A DNA stretch of 64,000 bases from Roseinatronobacter ekhonensis (lineage in GTDB: Bacteria; Pseudomonadota; Alphaproteobacteria; Rhodobacterales; Rhodobacteraceae). The DNA is taken from positions 1 through 64,000 of the forward strand of contig NZ_UIHC01000002.1 of assembly GCF_900499075.1 (NCBI RefSeq). Reading direction: 5' to 3'. The notes beneath the pieces were generated by a model, which was not told where the DNA came from, made no database searches, and worked only from the letters and a program-made list of their open reading frames with translations. Positions 20,451 through 32,218 of the stretch are shown here, piece by piece; within the stretch, counting starts at the first letter, position 1; each line of letters begins with the position of its first letter. The position numbers and the translations under genes are program-made.

Positions 20451-21376
20451 TGGCGGTTCTTCTTCTGGCCGAAATCACCGATGGCGCGCTGAATATGGAT
20501 GCGACGTCCAAGGCAGCAACCGCGGCAAAGCAACTGGGCGATGTGACGGTGCTATGCGCCGGTGCGCAGGCAGCCGATGGCGCTGCACAGGCGGCAACGA
20601 TTGACGGTGTGTCAAAAGTGCTGGTTGCAGAGGATGCCAGCCTTGGCCACCGTCTGGCCGAACCGACCGCGGCGCTGATCGTGTCGCTGGCTGGCGAATA
20701 CAGCCATATCGTGGCCCCCTCGACCACAGACGCCAAGAACATCCTGCCCCGCGTCGCGGCACTGCTGGATGTAATGGTGCTGTCGGATGTGACCGCAGTG
20801 GTCGATGCCGACACGTTTGAGCGCCCGATCTACGCGGGTAACGCCATCCAGACCGTGAAATCGGCGGATGCGACCAAGGTCATGACCATCCGCACCTCGA
20901 CATTCGAGGCGGCAGGGCAGGGCGGTTCCGCCCCGGTGGAAACCATTTCCGCTGCCGAGAACCCTGGCCTGTCGGAATGGGTCGAGGACAAGGTCGCCGA
21001 ATCCGACCGCCCCGAACTGACCAGCGCAAAGGTCGTTGTGTCGGGCGGGCGCGGTGTCGGGTCCGAGGATGATTTCAAGATCATCGAAGGGCTGGCCGAC
21101 AAACTGGGTGCTGCCGTCGGTGCGTCGCGCGCAGCAGTCGATTCGGGCTATGCGCCGAACGACTGGCAGGTGGGCCAGACCGGCAAGGTCGTGGCACCCG
21201 ACCTGTATATCGCGGTGGGTATTTCCGGCGCAATCCAGCACTTGGCCGGGATGAAGGACAGCAAAGTCATCGTCGCCATCAACAAGGACGAGGAAGCGCC
21301 GATCTTCCAAGTTGCCGATTACGGGCTGGTGGGCGACCTGTTCACGCTGGTGCCGGAACTGACCGAGAAGCTCTGA
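20450..21376 (+). CDS. etfA: Electron transfer flavoprotein, alpha subunit
   Basis: The FAD-binding subunit of ETF. 308 residues, starting [15 protein letters not shown]. The FAD domain in the C-terminal half shows [43 protein letters not shown] and the ETF-alpha signature stretch [20 protein letters not shown] ahead of [16 protein letters not shown]. It follows etfB with a one-base overlap, and a strong terminator lies 23 bases after the stop, closing a two-gene operon. Confidence 0.98.
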
Positions 21377-21399
21377 GAACTTCGGATACTACATGCGAA

Positions 21400-21426
21400 A
21401 GGGCGCCCATCTGGGTGCCCTTTTTC
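21400..21426 (+). terminator. Rho-independent terminator of etfBA
   Basis: agggcgccca-tc-tgggtgccct forms a 10-bp stem with one G-U pair followed by a T-run (ctttttc). It lies between the converging etfA and sensor/exonuclease genes. On the minus strand only three T follow, so it mainly serves etfBA. Confidence 0.9.
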
Positions 21427-21442
21427 ATAACCTCTTGTGCCC

Positions 21443-23539
21443 TTACATCTGCGTGTTCAGATCCTTCAAAAGTCGCCCATGCCTGCGCACCTCTGCCAAC
21501 ACCGCGCCGAAGGTTTCCAGCCCTTGTGCCTGCAACATCGGCAACAGCTTCAGGAACGCGTCTGCCGTTGCCACCGTATCGCCAATGGCGGTGTGGCGCG
21601 CCTCTTCGGGGATGGTAATGCCCAGCCGTGCGGTCAGTGCATCCAGCGAATGTTGTTCCAACTGGCCATAGACCACGGCCGACAACAGCACCGTGTCCAG
21701 CACCGGGTTGTCGAACTGCACGCCGATCGCCTTTTCGTAGCGGCGCAGAAATTCCATGTCGAACGGCGCATTATGCGCGATCAGCACCGCGCCACGGGCG
21801 AATTCGTGAAAGCTTTTTCCGGCCTCGACCATCGACGGCGCGCCCTTGACCATGTCTTCGGTAATGCCGTGCACATCGGTAGAGCTTTTCGGAATCGGCC
21901 TGCCCGGATCGACCAGCGTGTCGAACACCTCGCGCCGCACACGGCGGCCATTGACCACCCGCACGGCGGCGATTTGAACGATTTCATCGGCTGACGGGGT
22001 CAGCCCCGTGGTTTCCGTGTCGAAGACCACATAGGTCAGGTCTTGCAACCGGCTTTCCAGCACGCCTGCGTTGCGCTCTTTCGACAGCAATTCGAAATCA
22101 TAGACCACTTCGCGCTCTATCGGCGGGGGGCGACGCGTCGCGCGGCGGGCTTGCGGGATCGGCAGGCGCACCGTGGCGCGCCCGTCGGGGCGGGTTTCGG
22201 TCCAGGCTTCGGTCAGATGCGCCATCAGCACAGAGCGCGCGGTCACATCGGGCAATTCTGGGTCTATGCTCTCGGTCAGCCAGCCGTCGAATTCGCCCAC
22301 CGGCAGCGGTGCGCCCAGCCAGTCCAGATCAAGGATCGCACCGGGGCCATCCTCTTCGCTCAGAACCAGTCGGAAGCTGTTGGCGCGACCGGTTTCGGCC
22401 AGTTTGGTGCCCAGCCAGCGGAAGAACAGTGCCAACTCGAACCCGTCGCAGGTCAAAATCAGTTCCGGCCCTTCGGTGGTCAGAGCCAGATCCTGAGCCG
22501 CGAATTGCGCCTGTATCCCGTCGAGCAGGTCGCGCGAGCGGGTCCGCGTTTGCGGCATCCACTCGCCCCGCGTGGCGTCATGGCGGGCGCTGAGTTGGGT
22601 GATGGCACTGGTCAGCACGCGCACTTCTGTCTGCATGGCCTGTGTCAGGTCGCCTTGCTGTGCAAGCTCGGGGCTGTCCGACAGCACGCCGATGACGGTT
22701 TGCAGATTGGCCGCAGGGCGGCGCACACGGTCGAAGACCTCTGTCAAAAGCGCCTCGCGCGCAGCATGGGCAGACAGATCGGCGGTCACATCGCGCAGGG
22801 TCAGCACAAAGCCGGGGCGGCGGGTGTTGTCGGTCCGGCGCAGCACCCGCATGCGCCCTGATAAAAGCCGCCCGCTGGCGGTGGTGGCGCACATCAGGTC
22901 CGACACCGCATCGGGGTCGTTCATGTTTGCCAGCCGATCATAGGCATGGCGCACCGGCCCTTCGCGCAGATAGTCCAGCAGGTTGCGGTCCAGACCGGGG
23001 GCGGCGCCCGCTTCCAGAATGGTCACGGCCTGCCCGTTGTAGAACGCCAGTTGGAAATCGGCATTGCACAGCAGCACCGCGACCGGAACATCCGAAAGCA
23101 GCTTTTCCAGACGGGACTTTTCAGCCGAAAGGCGGGCGGTCTCGCGCGCGACGGATTCGGCCAAGGCCGAGCGCGTCTGCGCCAAGGATGCCGAAATCGC
23201 TTCTGCCGCCGGCGCGAGATCGCCCAGATACCGCGCCTGCGCCGCTTCGCGGGTCAGCCCCCCTGTCACATCGGCATGGGCGCGGCTGCGTATGGCGGTC
23301 GACAGACCGTCGATCGCACGGGCAACATTCGCATCGAACAGATACCAGATGCCCGTTGTTATGAACACGATCAGAAAGCCTGCGATCAGACCGGCCTGCA
23401 ATAGCGGCCCGTCCAGTCCGGGCTGCGGGCTGCGCGATAGCGTCAGCCAACCGCCAGCGACGATAGCCGCAATGCCGCCCAATGCGATCAGCAGGAAAAA
23501 CAGCAGAACACGGATACGAAGCGACAGACGGTCAAGCAT
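21443..23539 (-). CDS. Membrane-anchored PAS/degenerate histidine-kinase-like protein fused to a DnaQ-type 3'-5' exonuclease
   Basis: 698 residues with an unusual layout. Two membrane spans (about 11-32 and 46-68) are followed by a linker helix, a PAS-like domain (about 145-255), a region resembling histidine-kinase dimerisation and ATPase domains (about 255-480), and a DEDDh exonuclease (501-680). The exonuclease is intact: FDTETTGL (D507, E509), HNAPFDMEF (D594) and HTAIGD (H649, D654). In the kinase-like part the H-box position reads VFDRVRRPAANLQ, with D270 where the phospho-accepting His should be, and I see no clear N or G boxes, so kinase activity is doubtful. It overlaps the response-regulator gene by 8 bases and ends the acetate operon. 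Its nucleic-acid substrate is unknown. Confidence 0.88.
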   Translation of the reverse strand: MLDRLSLRIRVLLFFLLIALGGIAAIVAGGWLTLSRSPQPGLDGPLLQAGLIAGFLIVFITTGIWYLFDANVARAIDGLSTAIRSRAHADVTGGLTREAAQARYLGDLAPAAEAISASLAQTRSALAESVARETARLSAEKSRLEKLLSDVPVAVLLCNADFQLAFYNGQAVTILEAGAAPGLDRNLLDYLREGPVRHAYDRLANMNDPDAVSDLMCATTASGRLLSGRMRVLRRTDNTRRPGFVLTLRDVTADLSAHAAREALLTEVFDRVRRPAANLQTVIGVLSDSPELAQQGDLTQAMQTEVRVLTSAITQLSARHDATRGEWMPQTRTRSRDLLDGIQAQFAAQDLALTTEGPELILTCDGFELALFFRWLGTKLAETGRANSFRLVLSEEDGPGAILDLDWLGAPLPVGEFDGWLTESIDPELPDVTARSVLMAHLTEAWTETRPDGRATVRLPIPQARRATRRPPPIEREVVYDFELLSKERNAGVLESRLQDLTYVVFDTETTGLTPSADEIVQIAAVRVVNGRRVRREVFDTLVDPGRPIPKSSTDVHGITEDMVKGAPSMVEAGKSFHEFARGAVLIAHNAPFDMEFLRRYEKAIGVQFDNPVLDTVLLSAVVYGQLEQHSLDALTARLGITIPEEARHTAIGDTVATADAFLKLLPMLQAQGLETFGAVLAEVRRHGRLLKDLNTQM

Positions 23540-23963
23540 TGTGTGCGCCCTCGGGCGCGCGCTCTGCCAAGGATGCGCGGTCGACAGACAGCATGCGCCG
23601 CACCTCCTCGCGCAGTGTTTTCAGCTCGAACGGCTTCGATATGAACCCGTCCGCGCCCATCGCCAGCCCCTTGCGGCGTTCCATCGCAGAACCGCGCGCC
23701 GTCATCATCAGAATGCGCACCCCGTCGCATTCCGCCCGCGCGCGCACGCTTTGGCATATCTCATAGCCCGACACTTCGGGCAGCATGACATCCAGCAACA
23801 CCAGATCGGGCTTGCGGGTGCAGATCATGTCCACCGCGCCCGCGCCGGTGGCAAGGCGGGTCTGGGCATACCCTTCGCGGGTCAGCAGGTAATCGAGGGC
23901 AATAGCGATATTGTCCTCATCCTCGATCACCAATATCTCAGCCCTGCGCGCTTGATCCTCCAT
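23532..23963 (-). CDS. Single-domain response regulator (REC only)
   Basis: 143 residues forming one receiver domain with no output domain. The acidic pocket is ILVIEDEDNI, the phosphorylation site is the Asp in DLVLLDVMLPEVSG, and the conserved Lys is in FISKPFELKTL. I chose ATG 23963 (MEDQARRAEIL) because GAGGAGAGGAAA directly precedes it; a start seven codons upstream would consist of that ribosome site being translated. It overlaps the gene before it by 26 bases and the sensor/exonuclease after it by 8, so it is tightly coupled to both. CheY-like regulators act by binding a partner protein. The fused sensor is an obvious candidate, but its kinase part looks inactive, so phosphate may come from elsewhere. 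Confidence 0.9.
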   Translation of the reverse strand: MEDQARRAEILVIEDEDNIAIALDYLLTREGYAQTRLATGAGAVDMICTRKPDLVLLDVMLPEVSGYEICQSVRARAECDGVRILMMTARGSAMERRKGLAMGADGFISKPFELKTLREEVRRMLSVDRASLAERAPEGAHNA

Positions 23964-24492
23964 TTTCCTCTCCTCCTCCTCCACAAGCAGTCGTTAGAAA
24001 CGGGTCGTCCGGCGCCATCTTGAACCAATCCACATCCTGCGGAATGCCCTCCGCGTCCAGCGTTGTGCCATCCGACAGGTCGGCGCGGCGCGCGCCCGCA
24101 CAGTCAAACACAGACTGGAAGCCGAAGGTCAGCGCCCAGCGTTCTTTCAGGATTACCCCTGTAATGACATAGTCGGGGATGTTCGCATTGGTCTGGCGGA
24201 TGCGGTTGTCGATCGCGATGATGCGCGTGGTCAACGGCACCGCAAAAGTCCATGGCCGGTACCAGACCCGGTGTTCGTTGCGGCTGACGACGGTCACATC
24301 CTCTGGCAGACCGGCTTCAAATCGGCCTGCCCAGCTATATTCCAGATAGATCACCATCAGCACCATCGCTGCGGCGGCCCCAAATGGGGCGGTCCAGTCG
24401 GGCAGGCGGCGCAGCGTCAGGCGGTGCGCGATCAGGGCAAGGCCAAAGCCTGCCACCCCTGCCACGACCACCGCGAAGAATTCGAGAAACAT
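23938..24492 (-). CDS. Membrane protein of unknown function in the acetate cluster
   Basis: 184 residues from ATG 24492 (MFLEFFAVVVAGVAGFGLAL), with AAAGGG 9 bases upstream. Two hydrophobic helices lie at about residues 3-20 and 35-52. They are followed by a soluble region of about 130 residues containing SRNEHRVWYRPWTFAVPLTT and IIAIDNRIRQTNANIPDYVI, then a glycine-rich tail with a lone cysteine (TTACGGGGEENG). No known domain recognised. It starts 13 bases after the DUF294 gene and overlaps the response regulator, so it belongs to the operon and perhaps to the same membrane signalling complex. Confidence 0.75.
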   Translation of the reverse strand: MFLEFFAVVVAGVAGFGLALIAHRLTLRRLPDWTAPFGAAAAMVLMVIYLEYSWAGRFEAGLPEDVTVVSRNEHRVWYRPWTFAVPLTTRIIAIDNRIRQTNANIPDYVITGVILKERWALTFGFQSVFDCAGARRADLSDGTTLDAEGIPQDVDWFKMAPDDPFLTTACGGGGEENGGSSAQG

Positions 24493-24505
24493 GGATTGCG
24501 CCCTT

Positions 24506-26335
24506 TCAGCCCAATGTGCCTGCAAGCTGCCCCACGGCAGATTGCATGGTGCGCACGACGACAAAGGCGTCGCGCAGGTGGCTGCGCTCGAAATCGGACA
24601 GGTCCGAGGGCGCAAGAAAATTGTCGGGTTTGCGGTTCATGCGCACCAGCGTGGCCTGATTTTCCAGCCGCAGATCGGCGATCAGGTCATAGGCTTCGAT
24701 CAGGTCGCGCGCGCCAGAGACAGAGATGATCCCAAGCTCTTCCGCCGCCAGCAAGCGCGCGCGCGTGTTTGCCGCTGGGATGCGTCCGCGCAAGGCATAG
24801 ACACGGGCCAGATCGGTGATCGGGACCACGCCGCCATGTTTCATGTCGACATGGTTCTTATGCTCGCCCGAACGGATGGTGGCAAAGCCGCGCAACAACC
24901 CCAAGGGCGGCGCGTGCTTGATGGAATTCGACACCATATGCGCGACAAAGATCGAGTTTTTCGATGCCGCCTCGAGTGTTTCGGCCTGCAACTCGCGGAA
25001 CAGGCTGACCTGTCCGCCAATAGGGCGCAAGTCGAACATGACCGACGCCAGCATCTGCGCTTCGGTCGAGGGGGTGTTGATCCAGCCTTGGAAATAGCGC
25101 CGCCAGACTGACACAGGCTGACACCAGCGCGGGTTCGTGGCCATCATGTCGCCGGGGCAATAGAAATAGCCCGCCGCATCCAGCCCGTCGCTGACGTAGC
25201 GCGCCAGCTTGGTGAAATAGGCCATGTCATCGGGCGTGGCGCTGTCGTCGATAATCAGGCAGTTGTCCTGATCGCTGACGCCGGTCTGTTCCTGCCGTCC
25301 CTGGCTGCCGCAGGCGGCCCACAGATAGGGCACGGGGGCGGGGCCGAATTCGTCCTCGGCCAAGCGCAGCAGTCGTCGGGTGACGGTGTCTGCAATATCG
25401 GTAATCAGCCGTGTCACCACGTCATGCGCGTTATGCGCGCCGACCAGCTGCATCAACAGTTGCGGGATGCGGGCGGTTACATCGGCAAGCCCTGCGTAAT
25501 CCTTGGCATTGGCCGCGTCGCGCACCAGTTGGGCCGAACTGATCGCCTGAAAACGGGTCAGGTCGGTCTGGGTGATCATGCCCACCAGCTTGCCGCCGCG
25601 CGTGACGGGAACATGCCCGATGCGGTGCTCCAGCATCATATGTAAAATGTCGGACCCCAAGGCGCTCGGGTCGAGCGACATGGGCTCGCGGGTCATGAAG
25701 TCTGACAGTAGCGTGTCGGGGCTGCGTCCTTCGGCGAGCACCTTGCCCGACAGGTCGCGCGTGGTGACAATACCGACAAGCGCATCGCCCTCGACCACAG
25801 GCACACACGAAATGCGGTATTCGCGCAGCAGGCGCGCTGCTTCTTGCGCTGTGGTCTCGGGGGTTGCGCTGCGCGGGTTGCGCACCATCAGATCGGCCAC
25901 TTTCAGCGTGGCCAGATCATTCTGGCGACCCAGCTTGTTCTGGCCCTGACCACGGCTGAAGAACCGCTCGAACGCCGGGAAATTGGCGATCAGGTGGCGC
26001 AATTCACCGCCGGGCAGTTGCAGCAGAACCGTGTCGGATGTGGTGGTGGCGGTCGTCGCCGCGCGCCCGTCGCGCAGCAAGCCACGCTCGCCAAAGGAAT
26101 TGCGAGGGTTCAGGATGGACACCAGCGCGCCATGCGTATCCGTCACTTCGACCGTGCCGGATTTGACCAGCCAGACACCGCCGATGGGTTCACCTTCGGT
26201 ATATATCGTGGTGCCTGCGGGGTATTCGATGCGGCTGAAGGAATTGGCGACACGCGTCAATTCGTCAAGCGGCAAGCTGTCATACGGGTGCACCGACTGC
26301 AGGAAATCCAGAACCTTGGGGCTGACATCGGGCAT
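24506..26335 (-). CDS. cNMP-binding/CBS/DUF294 nucleotidyltransferase-like protein
   Basis: 609 residues from ATG 26335 (MPDVSPKVLDFLQSVHPYDS). Domain order: a cyclic-nucleotide-binding-like barrel (about 15-130, PAGTTIYTEGEPIGGVWLVK), two CBS repeats (about 165-285, each ending in a VPV-GIVTTRDL or VPVTRGGKLVGMITQTDL pattern), a DUF294 putative nucleotidyltransferase with GSQGRQEQTGVSDQDN (the GSxxR and acidic positions of the polymerase-beta fold), and DUF294_C. This family is regularly encoded beside acetate-type sodium/solute symporters. It may sense nucleotide state (cNMP or adenylate via CBS) and modify a partner, but no reaction is proven. Confidence 0.9.
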   Translation of the reverse strand: MPDVSPKVLDFLQSVHPYDSLPLDELTRVANSFSRIEYPAGTTIYTEGEPIGGVWLVKSGTVEVTDTHGALVSILNPRNSFGERGLLRDGRAATTATTTSDTVLLQLPGGELRHLIANFPAFERFFSRGQGQNKLGRQNDLATLKVADLMVRNPRSATPETTAQEAARLLREYRISCVPVVEGDALVGIVTTRDLSGKVLAEGRSPDTLLSDFMTREPMSLDPSALGSDILHMMLEHRIGHVPVTRGGKLVGMITQTDLTRFQAISSAQLVRDAANAKDYAGLADVTARIPQLLMQLVGAHNAHDVVTRLITDIADTVTRRLLRLAEDEFGPAPVPYLWAACGSQGRQEQTGVSDQDNCLIIDDSATPDDMAYFTKLARYVSDGLDAAGYFYCPGDMMATNPRWCQPVSVWRRYFQGWINTPSTEAQMLASVMFDLRPIGGQVSLFRELQAETLEAASKNSIFVAHMVSNSIKHAPPLGLLRGFATIRSGEHKNHVDMKHGGVVPITDLARVYALRGRIPAANTRARLLAAEELGIISVSGARDLIEAYDLIADLRLENQATLVRMNRKPDNFLAPSDLSDFERSHLRDAFVVVRTMQSAVGQLAGTLG

Positions 26336-26405
26336 GACATGTTTCCGGGGTTTGGGGTGGCCTGCCCCCGTAGCACGGGGACAGGCCGTTTGTCTTTGCG
26401 CCAGA

Positions 26406-28172
26406 TCAGTGGGCGACAGCGCCGCCGGCACCTTTCGGAACGCGGATACCTTCGACCATCTCCTGGATCTCTGCCGGTGCATCGCCCGTCATCTTGTTGA
26501 CGACGAATGCAGCGGTAAAGTTCAGGGCCGCGCCAACTGCACCGAAGCTCAGCGGCGAGATGCCGAAGATCCAGTTGTCCGGCGTGTTGGCCAGCATGTT
26601 GGTGCCGGGGATGAAGAACCAACCCAGGTAGGTGAAGATATAGAGCACGGTCGAGCCGAGACCCACGATCATACCTGCCACAGCGCCAGTCGAGTTCATC
26701 TTCTTCGAGAAGATGCCCATCATGATCGCCGGGAACAGCGAGCTTGCTGCCAGACCGAAAGCAAGTGCCACGGTTTGCGCTGCAAAACCCGGAGGGTTCA
26801 GGCCCAGATAGGTCGCCAGCGCAATGGCAAAGCCCATGGAGATACGGGCGGCCATCAGCTCACCCTTTTCCGAGATGGACGGGTTGAGCATGGACTTGAT
26901 CAGGTCGTGGCTGATGGCAGACGAGATTGCCAGCAACAGACCTGCCGCCGTGGACAGTGCCGCTGCCAGACCGCCAGCCGCGATCAGGCCGATCACCCAG
27001 CCCGGAAGCTGTGCGATTTCAGGGTTTGCAAGCACAAGAATGTCACGGTTGAAAGTGACCATCTCGTTGCCGGCCCAGCCCAGTTCGTCGGCGAATGCAG
27101 GCGCGTTGCTGTCGTTATAGTACTGGATGAACCCGTCGCCGTTCTTGTCTTCGAACGCCAGCAGACCGGTCTGTTCCCAGTTTGCCATCCAGTCAGGCTT
27201 GTCAGCAAAGGCCAACGGCGTTTCCTGCACACCATTCGGGAAAATGGTTGTGATGATGTTCAGGCGTGCCATGGCACCAACTGCCGGAGCAACGGTGTAA
27301 AGCAGCGCGATGAAGACCAGCGCCCAACCTGCCGATTTACGCGCATCCGACACTTTCGGAACGGTAAAGAAGCGGATGATGACGTGGGGCAGACCCGCGG
27401 TACCGATCATCAGCGACAGGGTGAACAGCACCATGTTGAAGGTTGATCCGTGGTTGCCGGTGTAGTCGTTGAAGCCCAGCTCGACCAGAACTTCGTTCAG
27501 GGTTTGCAGCAGCGGCTGCCCCGACCCGGTATGCGTGGCAAACAGGCCAAGCTGCGGCAGCGGGTTGCCGGTCAGTTGCAGCGAGATGAAGATCGCCGGA
27601 ATGGTGTAGGCCACGATCAGCACGCAATATTGTGCAAGCTGCGTGTAGGTGATGCCCTTCATTCCGCCCAGAACCGAATAGGCGAACACAACTGCGGCTG
27701 CGATCAGCAGGCCGGTCGTGTTGTCCACTTCCAGAAAGCGCGAGAAGGCCACGCCCGCACCGGTCATCTGACCGATCACATAGGTGATAGAGGCGACCAG
27801 AAGCGAGATGATGGCAAGCGTACGCGCGGTCTGGCTGTAGTAGCGGTCACCGATGAAGTCGGGCACGGTGAAACGGCCAAACTTGCGCAGGTAAGGCGCC
27901 AGCAGCATGGCCAGCAGCACATAGCCGCCCGTCCAGCCCATCAGGAAGGTCGAGTTGCCATAGCCCACGAAGGCGATCAGGCCCGCCATCGAGATGAACG
28001 ATGCCGCCGACATCCAGTCGGCTGCCGTCGCCGCGCCGTTGACGATGGGGTTAACGCCACGGCCCGCGGCGTAGAAGTCAGACGTTGATCCGGCACGTGC
28101 CCAGATCGCGATACCGACGTAAAGCGCGAAAGACGCGCCCACGAAGATAAGGTTGATTACAAATTGATCCAT
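26406..28172 (-). CDS. Sodium:solute symporter (SSS family, VC_2705 type; probable acetate carrier)
   Basis: 588 residues with about 13 membrane segments of the SSS/ActP superfamily. It begins MDQFVINLIFVGASFALYVG and shows the conserved GRGVNPIVNGAATAADWMSAAS loop and GAGVAFSRFLEV. The gene lies 14 bases after a DUF4212 small-subunit gene and downstream of acs and adk, the standard arrangement of the VC_2705-type carrier linked to acetate uptake. An extra soluble loop (about 290-350, with FEDKNGDGFIQYYNDSN) resembles an EF-hand-like acidic loop and is worth noting. The substrate is assigned by context, not by motif. Confidence 0.9.
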   Translation of the reverse strand: MDQFVINLIFVGASFALYVGIAIWARAGSTSDFYAAGRGVNPIVNGAATAADWMSAASFISMAGLIAFVGYGNSTFLMGWTGGYVLLAMLLAPYLRKFGRFTVPDFIGDRYYSQTARTLAIISLLVASITYVIGQMTGAGVAFSRFLEVDNTTGLLIAAAVVFAYSVLGGMKGITYTQLAQYCVLIVAYTIPAIFISLQLTGNPLPQLGLFATHTGSGQPLLQTLNEVLVELGFNDYTGNHGSTFNMVLFTLSLMIGTAGLPHVIIRFFTVPKVSDARKSAGWALVFIALLYTVAPAVGAMARLNIITTIFPNGVQETPLAFADKPDWMANWEQTGLLAFEDKNGDGFIQYYNDSNAPAFADELGWAGNEMVTFNRDILVLANPEIAQLPGWVIGLIAAGGLAAALSTAAGLLLAISSAISHDLIKSMLNPSISEKGELMAARISMGFAIALATYLGLNPPGFAAQTVALAFGLAASSLFPAIMMGIFSKKMNSTGAVAGMIVGLGSTVLYIFTYLGWFFIPGTNMLANTPDNWIFGISPLSFGAVGAALNFTAAFVVNKMTGDAPAEIQEMVEGIRVPKGAGGAVAH

Positions 28173-28186
28173 TGCTCGGATATCCC

Positions 28187-28441
28187 TTATTCTTCCACGC
28201 CAAACTCGTGGTCGAGCTTGTTCATGTAGCGGGTGTAATTGAAAATGAGCACGATGAAGGTGAGGATCGAGCCTTGCTGCGCGAACCAGAACCCAAGATC
28301 AGTACCCCCGACCGGAATACCCGACAGAAGCGGGCGTAGTATGATGGCGAACCCAAAGGACACCAACGCCCAGATTACCAGACTGATGCTGATAATTCTG
28401 AGGTTGGCCGACCAATAGGCGCCCCGTGATTTGTCTGACAT
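28187..28441 (-). CDS. DUF4212 small subunit of the sodium/solute symporter
   Basis: 84 residues from ATG 28441 (MSDKSRGAYWSANLRIISIS), with GGGAGA 7 bases upstream; longer frames run into non-conserved sequence. Two membrane helices, about 15-37 (ISLVIWALVSFGFAIILRPL) and 50-70 (FWFAQQGSILTFIVLIFNY), and the family ending YTRYMNKLDHEFGVEE. DUF4212 proteins occur as partners of VC_2705-type symporters and are thought to be needed for their function. The gene lies directly before the symporter. Confidence 0.92.
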   Translation of the reverse strand: MSDKSRGAYWSANLRIISISLVIWALVSFGFAIILRPLLSGIPVGGTDLGFWFAQQGSILTFIVLIFNYTRYMNKLDHEFGVEE

Positions 28442-28608
28442 TGTGACGTCTCCCAGTTTCCTCCTGCGCCTGCCCCGGTATGAGGCAGGCATCCTCTCGT
28501 CTCCCGGACCCCGCACGCTATGGTGGCGGGGCGGGTGCGGGCCAGACACTTGGGCCGGTCCCGCAGGTGTTGGCGCATCGCTGCACCAAGCCCGGTTGCC
28601 CGGAACTT

Positions 28609-29277
28609 TTAGGCCGTGACCTTGGTCACGATGGCACCCAGATCGCTTGCGATGCGGTCGATCTCTCCCATCGCATCCACGCGTTTCAGCGCGCCCTTGC
28701 CGTCATAATAGGCAATCAGCGGGGCTGTCTGGTCATGATAGGCGCTCAGCCGCGCGCCGACGGTTTCGGCGTTGTCATCGGCACGGCGCTTGAAGTCGGT
28801 TGCGCCGCAGGCGTCGCACACCCCTTCAATTGCCGGGGTTTTGAAGCTGTCATGATACCCTTCGCCGCAGGCTGCGCAGGTGTAGCGACCCGAGACGCGT
28901 TCAACCATGGCGGCGTCATCTACCTCTAGCGAGATGGCGGCCCCAAGTGTCATGCCCTGCTCTGCCAGAAGCGCATCCAGCGCTTCGGCTTGCCCCGCAG
29001 TGCGTGGAAAGCCGTCCAGAATGACGCCCTTCGCGCAGTCCGGGTCGCCCATACGGTCGCGCAGGATGGCCAGAACGATCTCGTCGCTGACCAACCCGCC
29101 CGCATCCATCACCGCCTTTGCCTGTTTGCCCGCATCCGTGCCAGCCGCGACCGCTGCGCGCAGCAGGTCGCCGGTGGACAGTTGCACAAGCCCGAATGTT
29201 TGCTCCAGCATACGCGCTTGCGTGCCTTTGCCCGCGCCCGGCGGGCCAAGCAGGATCAGAACGGTGGTCTTTGTCAT
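28609..29277 (-). CDS. adk: Adenylate kinase (zinc-type LID)
   Basis: Interconverts 2 ADP with ATP and AMP. 222 residues with P-loop GPPGAGKGTQ, DGFPRTAGQAEAL, and a long LID holding a four-cysteine zinc site (YTCAACGEGY ... VCDACG). I prefer ATG 29277 (MTKTTVLILLG), 9 bases after GAGGGG; an ATG three codons earlier is only 0-1 bases from that ribosome site. It lies 13 bases after acs. Acs makes AMP and pyrophosphate, so co-expression of Adk restores ADP. This may be a second, acetate-specific copy, since housekeeping adk in Rhodobacterales normally sits in the ribosomal-protein operon; that copy is outside the window. Confidence 0.95.
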   Translation of the reverse strand: MTKTTVLILLGPPGAGKGTQARMLEQTFGLVQLSTGDLLRAAVAAGTDAGKQAKAVMDAGGLVSDEIVLAILRDRMGDPDCAKGVILDGFPRTAGQAEALDALLAEQGMTLGAAISLEVDDAAMVERVSGRYTCAACGEGYHDSFKTPAIEGVCDACGATDFKRRADDNAETVGARLSAYHDQTAPLIAYYDGKGALKRVDAMGEIDRIASDLGAIVTKVTA

Positions 29278-29290
29278 GGTGTCCATCCCC

Positions 29291-31237
29291 TCAGGCCCGG
29301 TTCATGCGGTTGTCGATCAGGTCATCAACCACCGACGGATCGGCCAGCGTGGACGTGTCACCCAGCGCGCCATAGTCGTTTTCAGCGATCTTGCGCAGGA
29401 TACGGCGCATGATCTTGCCCGAACGCGTCTTGGGCAGGCCCGGCGCCCATTGGATCAGGTCGGGGCTGGCGATGGGGCCGATTTCGGTGCGGACCCATTT
29501 GACCAGCTCCTTGCGCAGCTCATCCGTGGGCTCAATCCCGTTCATCAGGGTGACATAGGCGTAGATGCCTTGCCCCTTGATGTCATGCGGGTAGCCGACC
29601 ACGGCAGCCTCTGCGACAGTTTCATGCGCGACAAGGGCGGATTCCACTTCGGCGGTGCCCATGCGGTGGCCGGACACGTTGATCACGTCATCGACGCGGC
29701 CCGTGATCCAGTAGTCGCCATCGGCGTCGCGGCGGCACCCGTCGCCGGTGAAATAGTAGCCTTTATATTGGCTGAAATAGGTTTCCATGAAACGCTCATG
29801 GTCGCCCCAGACGGTGCGCATCTGCCCAGGCCAGCTATCTTTTACGCACAGCACACCTTCGGCGGCGGTCTCTGTCTGCACCTCGGCGGTCGCCGGGTCC
29901 AGCACTTCCAGTTGTACGCCAAAGAATGGCTTGGTCGCCGCGCCGGGCTTTGCAGGGGTCGCGCCCGGAAGCGCCGTGACCATGTGGCCGCCGGTTTCGG
30001 TCTGCCAGAACGTATCGACAATGGGGCATTTGCCCTTGCCCACATGGGTGTTGTACCAGTTCCAGGCTTCGGGGTTGATCGGCTCACCGACCGAGCCCAG
30101 CAGCTTGAGCGATGACAGGTCATGCTTTTCAACCCATTCCGGCCCTTGGCCCATCAGGGCGCGGATGGCAGTGGGGGCGGTGTAGAACTGGTTGACCTTG
30201 TGCTTGGCGCAGACTTCCCAGAACCGGCCCGCATCGGGGTAGGTTGGCACGCCTTCGAACATGATGGTGGTCGCACCATTGGCCAGCGGGCCGTAGACGA
30301 TGTAGCTGTGTCCCGTGACCCAGCCCACATCGGCAGTGCACCAGAAGATGTCGCCGTCGTGATAGTCGAAGGTCAGTTCCTGCGTCATCGCGGCATAGAC
30401 CAGATAACCGCCAGAGGTATGCACAACGCCCTTCGGGCGCCCTGTGGACCCGGAGGTGTAGAGGATGAACAGCGGATCTTCCGCGCCAACCTCTTCGGGT
30501 GGGCAATCGGTGCTGGCGTCGGCCATCATGGCCTTCACGTCCAGATCGCGGCCTTCGACCCATGTGGTCTGGTCGCCGGTGTGTTTGACGACAAAGCACT
30601 TCACCTTGTCCGAACAGTCGAACAGCGCCTTGTCGGCGTTCGATTTCAGCGCGGTGCGGCGGCCACCACGCGGGGCGGTGTCGGCGGTGATGACGGCCAC
30701 GGCGCCGCAATCGTTGATGCGGTTGGCCAGAGCATCGGGCGAGAAGCCTGCGAAAACGATGGAATGGACCGCGCCGATGCGCGCGCAGGCGAGCATGGCA
30801 TAGGCGGCTTCGGGGATCATCGGCAGGTAGATGATGACCCGGTCGCCTTTGCCAATGCCCTGCGCCTTGAAGACGTTGGCCATGCGGCTGACTTCGTCTT
30901 TCAGCTCTGCATAGGTGATGTGGCGGGCGGGCGTCTTGGGGTCATCGGGCTCCCAGATGATCGCGGTCTGGTCGCCGCGCGTGGCGACATGACGGTCGAC
31001 ACAGTTGGCGGCCACGTTCAGCGTGCCGTCCTCGAACCATTTAATGTCGACCTTGCCGAACTCGAAATTGGTGTTCTTCACCTTGGTGAACGGCTTGATC
31101 CAGTCGATACGCTTGCCATGCTCGGCCCAGAATGCGTCCGGGTCTGCGACAGATGCGGCGTACATCTCTTCGTATTGCGCCGCGTTCACATGGGCGTTTG
31201 CGATGAATTCATCGGATGCCGGGTAGGTCTTTGACAT
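29291..31237 (-). CDS. acs: Acetyl-CoA synthetase (AMP-forming)
   Basis: Converts acetate, ATP and CoA to acetyl-CoA, AMP and pyrophosphate. 648 residues, the usual Acs length, starting at ATG 31237 ([19 protein letters not shown]) behind a strong ggaggag ribosome site. The phosphate loop is [15 protein letters not shown], the acetate pocket region [18 protein letters not shown], and [16 protein letters not shown] carries the catalytic lysine that is acetylated in other bacteria. It heads the eight-gene minus-strand operon ending in the sensor/exonuclease. A dyad 31-46 bases before the start may be an operator. Confidence 0.97.
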
Positions 31238-31267
31238 GAATGCTCCTCCAGTCGTGGGGAGCGTGAT

Positions 31268-31283
31268 TGCGCAAAATTGCGCA
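31268..31283. promoter_or_regulatory. Perfect dyad in the acs leader
   Basis: TGCGCAA-AA-TTGCGCA has 7-bp arms and a 2-base spacer. Its half site resembles the TTTGCAAA-like motifs bound by RamB/PccR-type short-chain acyl-CoA regulators, with CG in place of the centre. It also contains attgcgca twice, 10 bases apart. Its position just upstream of acs suits a repressor site. No regulator gene is adjacent. Confidence 0.4.
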
Positions 31284-31624
31284 GGTGCCCCCCTTTGTCT
31301 CGGTGTGTTGGCGGTTGGACGCCTCAACACCTATCCCCGTCGAGACCATAACGCATTCGTCAAGAAATGTGTAACTTTTTTTGAAATAACGATTTTTTTG
31401 TAAAAGGTTTCACAGATAAGTGGTCAAAAATGAAAACTAATTTGCGCTGCGGTGCAGAGAGTGCCGAAAAACAAGGCTTTTTCAGGGCGGCCGAAAACAG
31501 GTCGTTGGAGTGTTGGCGCTATCAGTTTCGACCATCCTCTGTGGCGCATTTCCCAACAGGGGCGCGACATTTTCGCAAAGCTGCGCGCAGGCTTCGCGCA
31601 TTAAAGCGATTCGGGTATTCCGAA
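31284..31624. other. Intergenic region between acs and the AhpD-like gene
   Basis: No gene supported. Near acs there is an imperfect inverted repeat (gtgttg ... caacac, 31305-31330). Reading towards acs, TTACAC, 17 bases, TTATGG (31346-31374) is a possible sigma-70 promoter, weak in its -10. The stretch 31375-31440 is T-rich (cttttttt, gatttttttg). A plus-strand frame from 31430 overlaps the AhpD-like gene and looks like a shadow. Confidence 0.4.
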
Positions 31625-32218
31625 TCAGATGTGTTTTCCCACGGTCCAGCCAGTCGTGCCCAACCGTTCCTCGCCTTTCGAGCGTGGCAAATCCTCTAGC
31701 GCGGACCCCATCGAATCATTCCAGCGGTTCAGGAAACCGAACAGGGCAACGACGCCCATGATCTCGACAATCTCGTCCGCTGGCCAATGCGCTCGCAGGG
31801 CGGCATGGTGGTCTTCGGTGACGGCGTTCGGCACTTGGGTGGCGGCATGGGCGAAGGCCAGTGCGGCTTTCTCTGCATCAGAGAAATGCGGGCTGTCCGT
31901 GAAATTCCAGACATCGTTCAGCCGCGCCTCTGACGCGCCGAAACGCTCTGACGCCAAGATCATATGTGCCTGACAGTACATGCAGCCCGACGCGAACGAA
32001 CTGACATAGCCCAGCAACCGCTTGAATTCTGGCGTGACGCCAGCCTCTGACGTCATGACCGCGATGTTCAACGCGGTAAAGGCGCGGGCAATCTCGGGCC
32101 GGTGCGCCATGGTGCGCACGGAATTCGGGATCACGCCCAAAGGCCCTTTGAAGAACTGCACCTCATCGCGCAGGGCAGGGTCCATCTGGTCCTCGGTCAA
32201 GGGGGCGACAAGCGGCAT
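31625..32218 (-). CDS. AhpD-like / carboxymuconolactone decarboxylase family protein
   Basis: 197 residues from ATG 32218 (MPLVAPLTEDQMDPALRDEV), with AGGAG 8 bases upstream. An all-helical AhpD-type core with CxxC-x2-H in SGCMYCQAHMILASERFG, the redox-active pair of peroxidase-type members, followed by DVWNFTDSPHFSDAEKAALAFA. Such proteins reduce peroxides or act in small-molecule metabolism; the physiological substrate cannot be told. The gene is monocistronic in appearance and separate from acs. Confidence 0.85.
   Translation of the reverse strand: MPLVAPLTEDQMDPALRDEVQFFKGPLGVIPNSVRTMAHRPEIARAFTALNIAVMTSEAGVTPEFKRLLGYVSSFASGCMYCQAHMILASERFGASEARLNDVWNFTDSPHFSDAEKAALAFAHAATQVPNAVTEDHHAALRAHWPADEIVEIMGVVALFGFLNRWNDSMGSALEDLPRSKGEERLGTTGWTVGKHI

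Follow-up and report, generated by a model that had tools for sequence, protein, structure and literature searches.

A membrane receptor joining a degenerate histidine kinase module to an intact DEDDh exonuclease, encoded with a lone response regulator in an acetate gene row of Roseinatronobacter ekhonensis

The last gene of a minus-strand acetate gene row in the 64,000-nucleotide stretch of Roseinatronobacter ekhonensis DNA analysed here (the window) encodes a membrane receptor in which a PAS-like domain leads into a histidine kinase (HK) fold that has lost its catalytic residues, followed by a DEDDh exonuclease that has kept them (Table 1). The explanation we favour, with moderate confidence, is a DivL-like pseudokinase receptor whose DHp-like helices would dock the receiver encoded immediately upstream, such that the phosphorylation state of the receiver, together with membrane/PAS input, would switch the fused exonuclease in acetate/pyruvate metabolism.

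Table 1. Features of the window, with their positions, strand and the basis of each assignment (aa, residues of the receptor; RR, response regulator).
Feature	Position	Strand	Basis
Pseudokinase-exonuclease receptor, 698 aa (TM-TM-PAS-pseudo HK-DEDDh exonuclease)	21443..23539	-	single ORF, end-to-end relatives, AlphaFold2 model
Two membrane helices, aa 7-36 and 43 to ~70	23330..23521	-	model secondary structure, hydrophobic sequence
PAS-like domain, aa 149-253	22781..23095	-	PAS_4 E 0.0027 (below cut-off), model
DHp-like helical hairpin, aa 252-327	22559..22786	-	model; H column and H+3 Arg counts
CA-like (HATPase-fold) domain, aa 331-466	22142..22549	-	alignment of 119 pseudokinases with 26 intact kinases, model
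DEDDh 3'-5' exonuclease domain, aa 502-664	21548..22036	-	RNase_T E 5.8e-38; invariant residues
Single-domain RR, receiver alone	23532..23963 (start codon by eye; ORF as listed 23532-23984)	-	Response_reg E 1.5e-25; phospho-acceptor Asp, Lys, Thr present
Small membrane protein between DUF294 and RR	23938..24492 (start codon by eye)	-	
cNMP-CBS-CBS-DUF294 nucleotidyltransferase-like protein	24506..26335 (start codon by eye; ORF to 26482)	-	Pfam
VC_2705-type sodium/solute symporter	26406..28172	-	TIGR03648, 817 bits, above cut-off
DUF4212 symporter small subunit	28187..28549 (ORF as listed)	-	PF13937, TIGR03647
Adenylate kinase, in acs gene row	28609..29286	-	ADK E 3.7e-54
Acetyl-CoA synthetase-like (acs)	29291..31330	-	translation; Paracoccus denitrificans homologue annotated acetate--CoA ligase in like gene row

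The receptor reading frame is uninterrupted from its ATG to its TAA. A Pfam scan places RNase_T at residues 504-662 and PAS_4, under the cut-off, at 149-253, with HisKA and HATPase_c absent from the matches up to E 1. An AlphaFold2 model built on a 50-row alignment (mean pLDDT 87.5, pTM 0.64) has long helices at 7-36 and 43-88, of which the second was assigned a membrane boundary at about residue 70 by eye, a helix at 108-149 that we read as a probable coiled coil, a PAS fold at about 150-250, DHp-like helices at 252-288 and 296-327, a CA-like fold at 331-466 and the exonuclease from 502. The two membrane helices and PAS-like domain described in a first-pass annotation of the sequence are thus present in the model. 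Foldseek searches with the model returned both HK structures (WalK, 4i5s, ThkA) and DEDDh nucleases (PolC, epsilon, RNase T). No curated family spanning the whole architecture was seen among the 25 of 42 NCBIfam matches listed, nor among 25 of 29 in a second search, all of which lie within the exonuclease. Among the findings that the same annotation named as fatal to its reading was a frameshift joining two separate genes. Of 35 genomes of the genus, 32 encode the receptor at full length (75-89% identity) and three have it in fragments; together with the open frame and the recurrence of the full architecture beyond the genus, this rules out a frameshift or a chance fusion.

The receptor belongs to a widespread family. 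A match to it was found in 57 of 60 genomes searched (its own included), many of those outside the genus being to a DnaQ-like exonuclease only, and at E 1e-30 it was found in 73/149 genomes of the family and 26/289 of the class, its own again included in both. A named collection held at least 544 confirmed relatives; the best 80 of these, taken as loci, carry titles from the Alpha-, Beta-, Gamma- and Deltaproteobacteria and the Magnetococcales, along with one metagenome record each titled Nitrospirota (L123) and Caldilineaceae (L147), for which misbinning is possible. Two main forms occur, one of about 700 residues with the kinase-like middle and one of about 480 in which PAS is joined to the exonuclease.

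The middle module keeps the HK fold (DHp and CA) and is, as judged from its sequence, a kinase module without its catalytic residues, both the H-box His and the ATP site having been lost. D270 (22730-22732) occupies the position of the phospho-acceptor His, since it stands three residues before R273 (22721-22723), the H+3 residue, and five before P275, as in H-E-L-R-T-P. This Asp, remarked on in the first-pass annotation as the mark of an inactivated kinase, turns out on a survey of homologues to follow a family-wide pattern: among 124 aligned full-length relatives the position holds Asp in 68, Glu in 45, Ala in 4 and seven other residues once each, and His in none. (The 124 comprise 63 proteins from genome searches and 61 from the set of 80 named loci, from which 17 without the pseudokinase and the truncated L101 and L163 are excluded; L088, L089, L090 and L097, each a copy of a genome already represented, are included.) Setting aside those four copies and L098 leaves 119 pseudokinases, which we compared with 26 kinases selected for intact motifs. 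The G1 Asp is Trp in 117/119, the F-box column is empty in all 119, and the N-box Asn was not seen among the eight commonest residues at each column. The H+1 acidic residue, which is catalytic in HisKA kinases and phosphatases, is replaced by Arg or Gly in 87/119. The H+3 Arg is retained in 111/119 and is the least variable position between residues 262 and 299 (0.2 bits, 77 rows); mean variability of the H-box helix is just slightly under that of the CA-like part (2.08 and 2.36 bits). A profile of the pseudokinase region (A2, 35 rows) finds HK structures, with DivL first (E 6.9e-7) and ZraS and others also recovered, and single scans of its 35 members detect HisKA in four (best E 0.00022) and HATPase_c in one (E 0.012). 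A canonical or otherwise active kinase with its phosphorylatable His displaced is ruled out by the 0/124 His count and the lost ATP site, and by the placement of H258 and H320, the only His residues of the DHp-like region, outside the H-box.

Module and response regulator go together. The window RR, whose reading frame overlaps that of the receptor by 8 bases, belongs to a set of 113 rows, chosen by similarity to it and including some not adjacent to a receptor, in which the phospho-acceptor Asp, the Lys, and Thr or Ser are kept in 113/113 each. Counting an RR as directly upstream when it lay fewer than 400 bases away on the same strand, in loci whose upstream flank was 500 bases or longer, we found one in 109/121 loci with the module and 0/31 that lack the module but keep part of the N-terminus (duplicates included), as well as in none of nine further exonucleases belonging to neither class. 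After removal of recognised duplicates and truncated loci, and with L055 and L140 placed in the module-bearing class, the counts are 106/118 with the module and 0/36 without; in the form that retains TM-PAS without the module (L055 included) the RR is found in 0/24. The co-encoded single-domain regulator, proposed at the outset as a partner of the sensing complex, is in this sense tied to the kinase-like module. With the TM-PAS part encoded between the RR gene and the pseudokinase part, losing those two and nothing else would take more than one simple deletion.

The tie extends to the H+3 Arg, which is present in 105/107 RR-linked copies vs 6/12 unlinked ones. In two of the 12 unlinked loci (L103, and L062 in its genome G262, read as L192) an RR is present at another place in the locus, the H-box helix is gone from L055 and L140, and six (L125, L145, L146, L151, L165, L099) have altered H-boxes, with the Arg still in place in L151 and L099. 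L144 has a good H-box and no RR found in its locus, as does L120, which is on a 6.8-kb contig. Of the 33 plasmid records that matched, we went through seven, and six fit the RR-Arg pattern, with RR and Arg both present in L198, L200 and L204 and both missing in L199, L201 and L202 (L199 being without the module); the seventh, L203, keeps an annotated RR while missing most of the H-box helix, which counts against docking of the RR on the module. The locus counts are not independent, the loci being related by descent. A tree of the exonuclease (155 rows, quick method) shows nine changes of the module and 13 of the RR. When L055 and L140 are classed as module-less, this tree offers four well-supported contrasts, in which the RR changes in the same direction in 3.5 on average and in the opposite direction in none (median p 0.125); four contrasts are too few for significance.

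It may be that the dead kinase is only a stalk that dimerises and relays the signal from PAS to exonuclease, and that the RR, while belonging to the same regulon, is just a neighbour and acts on something else. HK modules do dimerise in general, forms with PAS directly joined to the exonuclease and no RR exist, and L144 and L203 break the pattern expected of docking. We nevertheless consider a stalk unlikely, although by no means negligible, as it leaves unexplained the association of RR with module, the constancy of the H+3 Arg, and the absence of that Arg in half of the RR-less copies.

The proposed docking of the receiver by the pseudokinase has a precedent in DivL, which binds DivK~P via an HK docking face, with R553A (Y550+3) weakening the binding (PMC4211667). 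The same source, in the portion drawn on here, describes DivL as without kinase and phosphatase activity and reports that Y550H does not restore autonomous kinase activity (PMC4211667); DivL regulates CckA (PMC9430884). The receptor and DivL, the top solved-structure match of profile A2, share the HK fold, a substituted phospho-acceptor, an Arg at H+3 and a partner receiver with intact phosphorylation residues. They differ in that DivL has Tyr at the H position, whereas the receptor family has Asp or Glu there and has lost the N-box, G1 Asp and F-box; in that the nearest kinase of the receptor's pseudokinase within genomes is of an SLC5-fused type; and in that the proposed output is a fused nuclease.

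That nearest kinase is the most likely candidate, from sequence comparison, for phosphorylating the RR. We call it CrbS-like and SLC5-fused, names that are in part provisional: all four kinases scanned contain HisKA and HATPase_c, the SSF symporter (SLC5) model reached its cut-off in one of them (L111, E 3.4e-6) and was missing in the other three, the own-genome copy included, even at E 10, and NCBIfam gave no symporter match for three N-terminal parts. That of the own copy otherwise matches a solved structure named histidine kinase (10ed, E 1.1e-73), and one of 12 listed plasmid homologues of it (of 60) is annotated 'sodium:solute symporter'. A profile of the pseudokinase (A4, 31 rows) finds this type of kinase, defined by its similarity to that of L153, as the best hit after the receptor in 6/6 genomes (E 9.7e-11 in its own genome vs 4.2e-5 for the next). 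In 21 loci its gene immediately precedes that of the RR, and in nine it immediately follows that of the receptor, in a search where many loci have a flank of 1.5 kb only and several kinase copies are cut by locus ends. The own-genome copy (G000:C135) is on a different contig from the receptor and has an intact H-box. Its neighbours (L178:4642-9529) are a single-domain RR of its own, additional to that of the receptor, and an HTH regulator carrying the PF09856 domain of short-chain fatty acyl-CoA regulators. A kinase homologue is present in 133/149 genomes of the family whatever the receptor type, so its presence does not discriminate and is uninformative as a predictor of receptor type. By eye, DHp positions past H+3 differ between partner kinase and pseudokinase, and we therefore make no claim of a common docking specificity.

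The exonuclease retains its DEDDh fold and its catalytic residues. D507, E509, D594, H649 and D654, the complete DnaQ-type set recognised in the first-pass annotation, are invariant in 63/63 proteins and 155/155 exonuclease domains; fold and catalytic residues are those of PolC, DnaQ-epsilon and RNase T, with the difference that the window enzyme is fused to a membrane receptor. In other loci, DEDDh exonuclease, CBS and DUF294 nucleotidyltransferase are fused in one protein (L082:1351-3576; L085:1-2133), a direct enzyme-enzyme link, and the same exonuclease domain is fused to an EamA-type transporter in L074 (1486-2994); these fusions tie the nuclease to such partners.

In the window the row runs, in order, acs, adenylate kinase, DUF4212 subunit, VC_2705-type symporter, cNMP-CBS-DUF294 protein, small membrane protein, RR and receptor. 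The adenylate kinase, placed between acs and the symporter genes, may recycle AMP from acetyl-CoA synthetase. Neither Pfam nor NCBIfam gives a match for the small membrane protein up to E 1; among loci whose flank is 5 kb or longer, a homologue lies upstream of the receptor in 16/46 that bear the pseudokinase and 17/17 that do not. Symporter and DUF294 genes accompany the exonuclease in the window and in 17/17 long-flank pseudokinase-less loci, with acs as well in Paracoccus and Marivivens. Paracoccus denitrificans PD1222 has the row acs, DUF4212, symporter, DUF294, hypothetical protein, RR (PDEN_RS22690) and '3'-5' exonuclease' (PDEN_RS22695), the last a public name that conceals both receptor and pseudokinase. 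On a Paracoccus aminovorans plasmid (L204) a nucleotidyltransferase-like gene, a sensor kinase, an RR and an exonuclease-receptor stand together in a compact row. No structured RNA reached the gathering threshold in the window, and a promoter and terminator scan of 21300-31800 gave nothing usable, its counts being near those of shuffled sequence (one promoter-like site vs 2.6; 10 terminator-like sites vs 8.7). An anti-phage system was set aside, given the metabolic gene context; the PADLOC hits were to exonuclease models of a general kind (E 2.1e-40 to 2.5e-26), with weak ones for the RR (9.1e-6) and the DUF294 protein (3.6e-5).

The acetate context, with acs, symporter, CBS/nucleotidyltransferase protein and exonuclease, is shared with the CrbS/R (MxtR/ErdR) SLC5/STAC systems, and the pseudokinase module resembles SLC5-fused-type kinases in the profile searches within genomes. 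CrbR activates transcription (PMC5715377), whereas the window RR is a receiver alone and its proposed output a nuclease. In Pseudomonas putida the MxtR/ErdR target PP_0353 is an RNase_T protein that shares its operon with the gene for a CBS protein (PMC9927547), and is likened here by description to the window exonuclease; it stands alone, in that the text of PMC9927547 drawn on here mentions no receptor or pseudokinase for it, whereas the window enzyme carries both. Deletion of PP_0353 is reported in that text to impair growth on pyruvate, an effect shared with deletion of actP-I, and not to impair growth on 20 mM acetate, and its authors speculate on mRNA decay; cells without the CBS gene pp_0354 grew normally on both pyruvate and acetate (PMC9927547). 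A P. fluorescens mutant in Pflu5625, a cAMP-binding, CBS, nucleotidyltransferase protein, is reported to show no phenotype (PMC5715377). DUF294_C has been placed among nucleotidyltransferase C-terminal domains (PMC3710099). No paper whose title or start of abstract describes the receptor was found in the open-licence literature, the scope of the search.

These observations bear on a second alternative, in which the exonuclease either has no activity or serves in housekeeping tasks on DNA, with the receptor attached for localisation only. Its closest nuclease profiles and structures are indeed PolC/DnaQ-type DNA exonucleases, yet the conservation of all five catalytic residues in every domain aligned, the recurrent symporter/DUF294 context, and the pyruvate growth defect on loss of PP_0353 (PMC9927547) make this improbable to our minds. 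Most improbable of all is a working phospho-relay, in which the Asp/Glu or another residue is phosphorylated or the module is a phosphatase on the RR, for while the H position is acidic in 113/124 relatives, the ATP-site residues are lost and H+1 is Arg or Gly in most.

We return, then, to a receiver docked on a dead kinase. The RR would be phosphorylated elsewhere, most likely by the SLC5-fused, CrbS-like kinase that is found beside it in many other bacteria and here on another contig, and would dock on the DHp-like helices of the pseudokinase. The state of this complex, with PAS input, would set exonuclease activity near the symporter, and the output may tune acetate/pyruvate uptake or use, probably via trimming of RNA 3' ends; the putative target would be RNA 3' ends or else nucleotides that DUF294 has added. 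With an acidic residue opposite the RR phosphorylation site, the pseudokinase might prefer the unphosphorylated RR, a prediction opposite to the case of DivL.

It is possible to speculate further, and more doubtfully, on a reversed two-component pathway whose output is enzymatic and non-transcriptional. A transporter-kinase would phosphorylate the lone receiver, the pseudokinase with its acidic substitution would read the receiver, and the fused DEDDh enzyme would take off nucleotides that DUF294 adds to RNA 3' ends or to a protein such as the symporter, the two enzymes making up a membrane writer-eraser pair that controls carboxylate uptake. The exonuclease-CBS-DUF294 fusions of L082 and L085 and the common gene rows fit such a pair, which we hold to be quite unlikely; the null pp_0354 deletion counts against a strict version of it in P. 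putida.

The outputs of two-component systems are mostly DNA binding or second-messenger turnover. If the reading we favour is true, this would be a broad bacterial family whose dead kinase senses a lone receiver and relays what it reads to a nuclease. The DivL principle would have been carried from the cell cycle to central carbon uptake, and there would be a frame for the unexplained pyruvate phenotype of the CrbS-regulated exonuclease (PMC9927547).
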